The position numbers and the translations under genes are program-made. A stretch of 37,638 nt of DNA. It comes from Candidatus Moraniibacteriota bacterium. GTDB taxonomy: Bacteria > Patescibacteriota > Minisyncoccia > CAIUEV01 > JAHKAQ01. Of the stretch, positions 21,393 through 36,576 are shown one piece after another. The DNA lies in contig WJJI01000013.1 of assembly GCA_014729795.1 (NCBI GenBank), forward strand, positions 1-37,638, given 5' to 3'. Within the stretch, counting starts at the first letter, position 1. Each line of letters starts with the position of its first letter. The notes below the pieces were generated by a model. The model was not told where the DNA came from. It saw nothing but the letters and a program-made list of their open reading frames with translations, and did not search any database.

Positions 21393-22763
21393 CTACCCTG
21401 ACACCCCATTATTAAATAATTTGATGTCAATATAATATTGATATAAGTCATTATTTGTTAAAAATTCCTTAAATCTGTTCAAAAAAATATCTAAATTATT
21501 GTCACTATTATTATCCAAGTAATTGGATAAATTATAAATCTGTTTATAAAGTTTATCTAGTTTAACTGATTTAAATTTATTAAAAGGAACATTATCTACA
21601 TCAAAAGAATCGAGGTTAAAAGCAAATCCAAATTCCTTTTTAAAATAATCTGAATGGTTATTTAAATTTTTTAAATAATCATTAATCATTTCGATTTTTT
21701 CTTTAATCATTTCGATTTTTTCTTGTTTTAGTTTACTTTTTTCAATTGTATCAAGAAGTTCTGGCTTATACCTATCAACATTTTCCATTTCAATATCACC
21801 ATTGAGTGTATCTACGGTTCCAAAGCCTCCCAAAGGGGGTATAAATTGTCTTGAAGTTGAATCTTGTTGTTTTTGTTCATTTTTTACTGTATCTAATATA
21901 ATCACTTCTCTATCATTATTTTCAGAAACTTCACTATAACCAATAAGAGTTTGTGTAAGGATATGTTTTGCATCTAGCACTCGCATTTTTTGATCAAGAC
22001 TTTTTAGGTTTCTTTCAAGATCTTCTAAGTTACCCCATTCAATTAAAGCTGGGCCTTTTTGGGTACTTTCAAAACCAAATAATTGGCCATCTTTGGTTAG
22101 TAGACCAGAATTAAGATGCCCATTTGTAAATATAAAAACTTACTTAGCGTTTTTTTCTGTAAAAATATTATCTAAACGTTACATTGCTAGGATCGTTAAT
22201 AAGACGGAACTATTATTACAGGTTTGTCTGCTATTTAAGAATAAATCAGCTGTATTGCCATATTCTTTATTATATAACATATCTTGTTCGTTTACTTTTT
22301 TTAAGCTCTTTTCCATTAATAGTTTTAATCTTATCATTGCTACTACTTCATCAGGCTTATCGTTAAATATTTTGCTTATTTTATCCTTATCATGATTCTC
22401 TCTACCATCAAAGTCTTCTAGACTTTTTGAATCCCTAATAACACTAACTACCCTGGTTAATAGTTTTTTGTATTGCCTTTTTTCAGGTTGAAGAAGATGA
22501 TAATCTTTAATTAAATAGTGTTTAAATATTGTTAATGGGTCGGGTATCTTGCCTTCTTTTTCATATTGTTTTTGAATTTCTTGAATTTCTTTTTCATTGT
22601 AAGTTTCAAGTTTATCCTCAATATTTATTATATGATCATTTTTCTCATCACCATGCACATTTTTTGGTGTATTAATTATTGAAGCTGTCAATAAGCCCAT
22701 TATTCCTTTTAAAAAATCTCTTCGTCTAATATTATTTTTTGGTTTTTGTTCAAATTTATTCAT
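21393..22763 (-). pseudogene. Tat-exported transglutaminase-like protein broken by two in-frame TAA codons
   Basis: Read from the ATG at 22763, one frame runs 457 codons to 21393, interrupted only by TAA at 22179-22181 (codon 195) and TAA at 22140-22142 (codon 208). The N-terminus is a twin-arginine signal (NIRRRDFLKGIMGLLTAS). Across the two stops the frame holds C182 (RQTCNNSSVLL), H216 (VFIFTNGH) and E232 (LFGFESTQ). These residues and spacings resemble a papain/transglutaminase-like Cys-His-Asp/Glu site. The second half is Asn/Asp/Lys-rich, with a 21-bp duplication. Because the motifs on both sides fit one domain, I read it as one gene with nonsense mutations, not two genes. Read-through cannot be excluded. 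The function is unproven. Confidence 0.7.
21682..21723. repeat. Two tandem copies of a 21-bp unit inside the broken gene
   Basis: The 21-base unit starting TTAATCATTTCG occurs perfectly at 21682-21702 and again at 21703-21723. On the minus strand it encodes EKIEMI repeats (EKIEMIKEKIEMIN) in a probable coiled coil. The perfect identity suggests a recent slippage duplication. Confidence 0.9.
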
Positions 22764-34989: not shown

Positions 34990-35370
34990 ATGAATTACTC
35001 TGCCAAAGTCATGGATCATTTTACAAACCCAAGAAACTTAGGAACCCTAAAAAACCCTGATGGAGTAGGCGAGGTTGGCAATCCAGTTTGTGGCGATTTA
35101 ATGAAAATCTATATTAAAATTTCAGAAAAAAACAGTCAAGAATATATTCAGGATATCAAATTTCAAACACTTGGCTGCGGTTCCGCTATCGCCACCTCCA
35201 GCATGATTACTGAATTAGCTAGAGGTAAGACGTTAGATCAAGCCCTTAAGATAAGTCGTGATGACGTCGCTAATGAACTGGACGGGCTGCCTCCGGCTAA
35301 ACTTCATTGTTCCAACCTAGCAGCTGATGCTTTAAAAAAAGCTATTAAAGATTATCAAAACAATAAATAA
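34990..35370 (+). CDS. iscU: Iron-sulfur cluster scaffold protein IscU
   Basis: IscU accepts sulfur from IscS and iron, and builds [2Fe-2S] or [4Fe-4S] clusters for transfer. The 126-residue protein has all ligands in place: C34 and D36 (GNPVCGD), C63 (TLGCGSAIATSSM), and H106-C107 (PAKLHCSNLAADAL). The Asp of VCGD is retained, and the spacing matches IscU rather than the SufU type with its long insertion. It follows iscS by 69 bases, so a minimal ISC pair is encoded. No IscA, HscA/B, ferredoxin or IscR gene is visible. Confidence 0.95.
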   Translation: MNYSAKVMDHFTNPRNLGTLKNPDGVGEVGNPVCGDLMKIYIKISEKNSQEYIQDIKFQTLGCGSAIATSSMITELARGKTLDQALKISRDDVANELDGLPPAKLHCSNLAADALKKAIKDYQNNK

Positions 35371-35437
35371 TAAAAGATAGTTAATAAAAAACTTGAAAAT
35401 TAAAAATTATATAAAATCTAATATAAGAAATTATTTA

Positions 35438-35465
35438 ATTTAACATAAGTTACATTATGTTAACT
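35438..35465. other. dif: dif-like chromosome dimer resolution site
   Basis: Two 11-bp arms flank a 6-bp centre: ATTTAACATAA (35438-35448), GTTACA (35449-35454) and TTATGTTAACT (35455-35465). The left arm is the exact reverse complement of the E. coli XerD half-site TTATGTTAAAT. The right arm differs from it by one base, and is close to the right arm of B. subtilis dif. The 11-6-11 geometry is that of dif. It lies in a gene-free gap 203 bases before the Xer recombinase gene. The site was found by comparison from memory, not by a search. Confidence 0.75.
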
Positions 35466-35600
35466 AAAGTAATTATTTAATATGTTTTAAGTTTAATCAA
35501 AAATATCAAACAACTTTATCTCTATCATCTCTTTATAGGAATTAAATTAAAAATTAATTTAACTTCATATTTGGCTTAAATTGAGGTTATTTAAATTTTT

Positions 35601-35667: not shown

Positions 35668-36576
35668 ATGCATCCTAAAACCGCGATTAAAAAATTTCTT
35701 CAGTGGATAATAGTTGCTAAACAATATTCCAATAAAACATTTGATCAATATCAAAGGTATCTTAATCATTTTATGAAATTCCTGGATCATAATCAAATTA
35801 AAGATTGTAAGGCAATTAATTTGGATTTAATTAATGATTATCGATATCAACTTACCAAAAAAGATTTTGATTTAGATACTCAAAATTATTATTTAATTGT
35901 GGTACGTTCATTTTTAAAATATTTAATAAAAAACGATATTCAAACCCTTGATCCGTTAAAAATCGATTTGGCTAAAAAAAAGGATCGTCAAGTTGAATTT
36001 TTAGCACCGGATGAAATAAGAAAGTTGGTTCAAGCTTGCAATAATGATGAAATTGGTTTAAGGAATCGAGCTATCATTGAAATGCTTTACTCTACCGGCT
36101 TACGCATTAGTGAGCTTTGTTCGCTAAATGTTCAAAATATTAACTTTAAAAGCAAAGAATTTTCTGTTCGCGGTAAAGGCCGTAAGGTTAGGGTTGCTTT
36201 CTTGACAGATAATGCAATTTATGTTTTAAATAAATACTTAAACCAACGCAAAGATAATTACTCTCCCCTATTTATTAACTATAAAAAAAATCAAAACCAA
36301 AAAAATATTATAACCGATAATCATGATCATAAAAGATTATCCAGAAATTACATAAGCACTATGATTTCTAAAACTGCAAAAATTGCTGGTATCACTAAAC
36401 CAGTTTCAGCCCACACGTTAAGACACTCTTTTGCCACTACCCTACTCTCAGCCGGAGCCGACATAAGAAGCGTTCAGGAAATGCTAGGTCACGCTAGTAT
36501 CAATACTACTCAAGTCTATACTCATGTAACCAATAAAAAATTAAAGCAAGTTCATAATAAGTTTCACACAGGTTAA
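35668..36576 (+). CDS. xer: Tyrosine recombinase of the Xer family
   Basis: Xer recombinases resolve chromosome dimers at dif before cell division. The 302-residue protein has the N-terminal SAM-like core-binding domain (residues 1-95) and the catalytic domain with the complete set R146 (STGLRISEL), K170 (RGKGRKVR), H249 and R252 (HTLRHSFATTLL), H275 (MLGHASINTT) and nucleophile Y284 (QVYTHV). Length and motifs match XerC/XerD/XerA-type enzymes rather than phage integrases. It stands beside a dif-like site and next to no phage gene, so a housekeeping role is likely. Whether it works alone or with a second Xer elsewhere is not visible here. Confidence 0.93.
   Translation: MHPKTAIKKFLQWIIVAKQYSNKTFDQYQRYLNHFMKFLDHNQIKDCKAINLDLINDYRYQLTKKDFDLDTQNYYLIVVRSFLKYLIKNDIQTLDPLKIDLAKKKDRQVEFLAPDEIRKLVQACNNDEIGLRNRAIIEMLYSTGLRISELCSLNVQNINFKSKEFSVRGKGRKVRVAFLTDNAIYVLNKYLNQRKDNYSPLFINYKKNQNQKNIITDNHDHKRLSRNYISTMISKTAKIAGITKPVSAHTLRHSFATTLLSAGADIRSVQEMLGHASINTTQVYTHVTNKKLKQVHNKFHTG

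Follow-up and report, generated by a model that had tools for sequence, protein, structure and literature searches.

The near-palindrome of 28 bp at positions 35438–35465 of the window is in our estimate (probability about 0.88) a dif site, with the neighbouring xer gene encoding the recombinase that acts on it, and the two would make up a one-enzyme system. By the window we mean the whole 37,638-nucleotide stretch of DNA analysed, which is one contig of a Candidatus Moraniibacteriota genome (G000) of 1.08 Mb in 50 contigs, 93% complete. A preliminary description had proposed a dif beside its Xer, and that proposal is now strongly supported by retention of the site in relatives, by its single copy per genome, by its location at the terminus in two closed chromosomes, by the presence of FtsK-gamma, and by genomes that contain a single Xer. 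It had also named three outcomes that would count against it, namely several equally good copies of the site, no conservation, and a skew switch elsewhere with a better dif; none of these was found. The extended symmetry around the site and the kinship of the enzyme with that of Gracilibacteria, both described below, were absent from that description.

The dif-like site and its surroundings

The features of the locus are listed here, where G001, G002 and G004 are relatives from the same family.

34990–35370, plus strand: iscU-like gene, upstream of the dif-like site; the order iscS-iscU-site-xer is the same in G001
35438–35448, plus strand: left 11-bp arm, ATTTAACATAA; its inner 9 bp are identical in G001, G002 and G004
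35449–35454, plus strand: 6-bp centre, GTTACA, non-palindromic, which confers polarity on the site
35455–35465, plus strand: right 11-bp arm, TTATGTTAACT, one base off the E. coli XerD half-site
35424–35479, no strand assigned: weaker outer inverted repeat (AAATTATTT / AAAGTAATT, with a 3-nt internal loop), with a fold z-score of −3.07
35668–36576, plus strand: xer, a 302-aa XerD-like tyrosine recombinase, as identified by profile scores, alignment and catalytic residues

The site therefore reads ATTTAACATAA-GTTACA-TTATGTTAACT, an 11-6-11 arrangement that forms a near-perfect palindrome of 28 bases, in which the inner 9-bp stretches of the two arms are perfectly inverted. Reverse-complemented, the left arm reads TTATGTTAAAT, the XerD half-site of E. 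coli dif. The sequence agrees with the preliminary description on both points that it made about the arms: the left is the exact inverse of the XerD half-site and the right is one base away, and both are XerD-type, with their inner 9 bp alike. The gene is adjacent to the site, as had been reported, at a distance corrected from 203 to 202 bases between the site and the xer ATG at 35668.

When both strands of the whole window genome were searched with up to 3 mismatches allowed in the 22 arm positions, the site was the single match, which is the number that had been expected, and the reversed control pattern gave no match in the same search. The 24-mer palindrome occurs once in the window, with no mismatches. 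On base composition, exact 9-6-9 copies are expected at 0.0009 per genome, and at 2e-7 in the stretch before xer.

Three of the four same-family relatives (G001, G002 and G004, which belong to three other genera) have a xer that is 69–71% identical to that of the window, with the site 78–506 bp upstream of it. Over the family, the gene is present as a single copy in four of five genomes, and all four have the site upstream. In the fifth, G003 (88% complete), no xer was detected and there is a weak site match elsewhere, with 2 mismatches. The 24-bp palindrome is perfect in G001 and G002 and has 2 mismatches in G004.

The DNA shared between the intergenic regions of the window genome and G002 is essentially the site alone (28 bp, 1 mismatch, E 2e-9); the site was found at an E value of about 1e-9 against 1e-4 for the next-best match, and the remainder is barely alignable. 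Alignment of the gap between iscU and xer, which had been suggested as a check, thus shows a 24-bp core kept in three genera within DNA that can barely be aligned. The genes around the site also vary. A regulator and a radical-SAM-like gene are inserted between iscU and the site in G002; an opposite-strand 93-aa zinc-ribbon ORF and 506 bp lie between the site and xer in G001; and the upstream neighbourhood is different in G004. In G001 and G002 xer is found between the core genes iscU and rplY, and in the window genome and G001 the site is 66–68 bp past the iscU stop.

Read towards xer, the centre is TGTAAG in G001 and G002 (CTTACA on the other strand) and TGTCCG in G004. We observed that the window centre, GTTACA at 35449–35454, is flipped relative to xer when compared with the three sister genera (L190, L191 and L192). 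Subtilisin-like protease ORFs occur near the site in G002 (L190:5683-7527) and G001 (L191:5140-6618), and end in PVYRFWSPVKRVHFYTASENE-type repeats. Elsewhere in the window, a 194-aa ORF at 22179–22763 carries a Tat-like signal (RRRDFLKG) and has no Pfam match. In other families of the same class, none of 26 xer loci had a comparable site clearly above the shuffled control. One genome of the class, G050, has a near-dif site, TTAACATAATGTATATTATATTAT, at which the GC skew is too noisy for placement.

The inverted repeat continues past the 11-bp arms, to a total arm length of 22 bp in G002 and 14 bp in G001 (both perfect) and up to 19 bp in Gracilibacteria, and its outer letters differ in every genome of the family and of Gracilibacteria. 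Over 12 sites, the left flank of a site matches its own right flank at 4.83 of 8 positions, compared with 2.97 of 8 for flanks from different genomes (permutation p 0.0001). Peribacteria flanks show no symmetry effect (2.35 vs 3.14). In Thermococcales, dif sites are likewise reported to be flanked by inverted repeats (PMC2958812). The outer symmetry may reflect a fold-back structure, a partner that changes together with it, or a mutational habit of palindromes. A more ambitious reading, which we put forward tentatively and consider rather unlikely, is that in the family and in Gracilibacteria dif is the core of a longer repeat whose symmetry is kept as its letters change; the repeat would also act through its shape, as a cruciform or hairpin or by way of a symmetric co-changing partner, and enzyme and site would have moved as a self-contained module.

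The recombinase and its relation to other Xer systems

The best-matching family for the window Xer is XerD (TIGR02225), at 261 bits, which is below the curated cut-off of 329.6, followed by XerC and then archaeal XerA. The XerA model (NF040815) scores 211.6 bits, narrowly under its cut-off of 220, and XerS scores 110.9 bits, under its curated cut-off of 267. The match to XerH is weak, at 64 bits compared with 126 bits for XerD. The protein aligns over its full length with E. coli XerD (1a0p, E 2.4e-35), and the catalytic residues are all present (R146, K173, H249, R252, H275 and Y284). XerD-type folds have already been solved. Away from this locus, the window genome encodes an FtsK that includes a gamma domain (E 4.7e-28, in an 806-aa frame), and FtsK-gamma was found in every site-bearing genome tested.

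The preliminary description had spoken of a single-Xer system. This holds for the relatives G001, G002, G093 and G257, and is less certain for the window genome, for which the suggested count gave two PF00589 genes, not one. PF00589 genes number one each in G001, G002, G093, G257, G097, G098 and G099, and three in G004, in which a 271-aa Xer-like frame was noted. The second Xer-like gene of the window genome (L002:331-1149) encodes a distant protein of 272 aa, 31% identical to the window Xer and closest to the XerA/integron-integrase model (208.5 bits, cut-off 220). Neither G001 nor G002 has a PF00589 counterpart to this gene, which adjoins an iron hydrogenase-like gene.

A maximum-likelihood tree was made from 56 Xer proteins, including 35 Xers of the same class with its sister family f2. 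Four Xers of the window's family pair with five Gracilibacteria Xers (support 100/98), and a branch with support 97/95 separates the palindrome-associated Xers of the family, Gracilibacteria and Peribacteria from the 35 class Xers including f2. This suggests, from sequence relationships, that enzyme and site were transferred together between lineages. Transfer is likely rather than proven, because a constraint that unites the family Xer with its own class, which is 19 log units worse, gives a p-AU of 0.0504 and is not firmly rejected.

We propose the following mechanism. A pair of molecules of the one Xer would bind the two near-identical 11-bp arms; a chromosome dimer contains the site twice, and the pairs bound at either copy would assemble. 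Strand exchange would then take place at the 6-bp centre, with cleavage and resolution of the dimer. The centre is the sole clearly asymmetric part of the site and would set its direction. FtsK, which carries the XerD-activating gamma domain, probably moves the two sites into contact and sets off recombination at the septum.

The known single-recombinase systems are XerS/difSL, XerH/difH, XerA/dif and XerL/dif (PMC5357621, PMC9765430, PMC2958812), and the system proposed for the window differs from each of them in how the enzyme scores, in the geometry of the site or in the distance between site and gene. XerA/dif of Archaea (Thermococcales) resembles it in having one recombinase, a 28-bp 11-6-11 site whose arms have few or no mismatches, flanking inverted repeats and, in some species, xer-dif modules (PMC2958812, PMC5357621). 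However, the archaeal reaction is reported to be independent of FtsK whereas FtsK-gamma is present here, and the window Xer scores best against bacterial XerD. XerL/dif of Legionellales also has one recombinase and long uninterrupted inverted arms; it was found by way of an element integrated at dif, and XerL forms a separate clade (PMC9765430). L. pneumophila has its dif over 400 kb from xerL (PMC9765430), whereas in the window's family the site adjoins xer and the arms are of the classical XerD type. In XerS/difSL and XerH/difH one recombinase is used, as proposed here, and the site adjoins the gene (PMC5357621), although difSL is 31 bp long with an 11-bp centre, compared with 28 bp and a 6-bp centre in the window. 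The E. coli XerCD/dif system shares the 28-bp length, the 11-6-11 arrangement, the XerD half-site and FtsK-gamma, but it has two recombinases and two different arms, in place of two XerD-type arms.

In the literature searched, with subscription papers outside its scope, we found no description of a dif or Xer system in Patescibacteria, Gracilibacteria, Peregrinibacteria or the Candidate Phyla Radiation. Patescibacteria are a very large group of ultra-small and mostly uncultured bacteria, and a recognisable dif would fix the terminus in draft genomes and mark the integration points of phages that use dif. A one-enzyme system with a near-symmetric, XerD-type site would be simple to reconstitute in vitro. 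With a Xer akin to those of Gracilibacteria, one can ask whether transfer of a gene-site module can replace an essential chromosome-maintenance pair.

Position relative to the replication terminus

The leading strand is usually G-rich, and the polarity of the skew switches described here relies on this. In the closed Gracilibacteria chromosome CP042461.1 (G093, 1.343 Mb), the stretch between about 80 and 630 kb has a positive GC skew and the sequence beyond about 700 kb a negative one, and the majority gene strand turns too. The site is at 621 kb, 20–80 kb from the turnover of skew and strand bias (about 640–700 kb), and xer is at 504 kb. The closed Peribacteria genome G257 (1.239 Mb) has a weak change of skew sign at about 680–720 kb, with the site at 710 kb. 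In the draft Peribacteria genome G097 the skew switch (about 345 kb) and the site (256 kb) are about 90 kb apart. In both closed genomes dnaA is about 100 kb from the site (G093:C1:721238 and G257:C1:807855), away from the GC-skew origin; the terminus is therefore called from the skew, together with gene strand bias in CP042461.1.

Within the family, the cumulative GC skew of the G002 contig is highest at kb 12, with the site at 18.4 kb, and that of the G001 contig at kb 11, with the site at 14.0 kb. The skew thus turns from positive to negative within 3–7 kb of the site in both, and the direction of the genes flips at the same place, which makes the two signals interdependent. No clear skew switch is visible in the window contig, which ends 2.2 kb past the site. 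Of the 20-kb stretches sampled from the window genome, most are single-signed (median absolute skew 0.12, compared with −0.03 for the window), and its 50 contigs are unordered. The earlier placement of the window near the terminus is hence supported in the sister contigs of G001 and G002, where the skew turns near the site, and has no visible switch to support it in the window itself. Overall, a terminus location is seen in the two closed relatives and would follow only indirectly for the window genome. The genes rpsL-rpsG-fusA, which are often near origins in other bacteria, are 4–8 kb from the dif-like site. This proximity, the offset in G097, the second Xer-like gene of the window genome and the flipped centre of its site all weigh against the dif reading.

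Wider occurrence and alternative explanations

The exact palindrome was scanned for in 85,000 species genomes. Among the matches listed, it recurs in Peribacteria, with the centre AATGCA, and in Gracilibacteria, with the centre GTTATA or similar. At all 22 testable Peribacteria loci among the matches listed, a high-scoring xer directly follows it. Four Gracilibacteria have a mapped xer, and in these the site and the gene are far apart: 117 kb separate them in G093, and they are on different contigs in G094, G098 and G099. In a further Gracilibacteria record, L089, the site adjoins xer. Each of seven genomes checked whole has one perfect copy. In a phylum sample of 380 genomes, with up to 1 mismatch allowed, the palindrome was found in 13: the window genome, 11 Peribacteria of family f124 and one genome of f38. 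We also noted that Peribacteria loci such as L052, L088, L115 and L164 have one conserved flank (TGTCAATTGA) and one AGGAAGG-like flank, whereas in Gracilibacteria the flanks are variable and symmetric.

Three other explanations of the palindrome were considered. It could be an operator of xer, to which a repressor or Xer itself binds, and have no role in recombination. Its position upstream of xer in all four family genomes with the gene fits such a role, as does its position in the 22 Peribacteria loci among the matches listed, directly before the ORF, where promoter or ribosome-binding sequences belong. This reading is insufficient because the Gracilibacteria site is far from xer in four genomes. 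Moreover, in G001 the 506 bp and the opposite-strand ORF intervene, and both the 11-6-11 geometry and the XerD-type arms match dif. We therefore consider an operator improbable. That the palindrome serves chiefly to terminate transcription past iscU, or as an RNA hairpin there, is more improbable still: there is no T-run and no terminator-like site was found, the inner 9 bp are conserved in sequence, which a terminator stem does not need, and there is a single copy per genome, even though the RNA has a favourable fold (−35.2 kcal/mol in G002, z −3.1 in the window) and the site closely follows the iscU stop in the window genome and G001. Both were judged unlikely, on the distant Gracilibacteria sites and the absent T-run.

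It is also very improbable that Xer and site are the attachment module of a mobile element rather than the chromosome's own resolution system. The gene is placed between core genes in G001 and G002, where it is the only PF00589 gene, it is single-copy in four of the five family genomes, and no element boundary marks were seen. In favour of a mobile element, the Xer groups with Gracilibacteria and not with its own class, and may therefore have been acquired, and similar palindromes occur beside other tyrosine recombinases in Firmicutes.

These Firmicutes, which include Paenibacillus (L058, L094, L097, L099, L114, L124, L136 and L151), have the palindrome 0–39 bp past the stop side of an ORF for another, lower-scoring tyrosine recombinase, and in L136 there are copies to either side of the gene. 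The arrangement is possibly a small recombinase-site module. Of the viral contigs with the palindrome, two that carry the commonest flank were examined closely; both are tailed phages, in which the palindrome lies between terminase genes, and a bare palindrome is therefore not always a dif.

Mobile elements elsewhere use dif. In CP042461.1, 11 kb (621,355–632,559; L220:11355 to L221:2559) lie between two dif-like palindromes, the second of which is TAAACATAACAGGAGTTATGTTAA. This stretch encodes an ATPase similar to M13 protein I (phrog_1675, E 4e-5), an SSB and a possible replication protein, and is probably a filamentous-phage-like element integrated at the dif of a Gracilibacterium.
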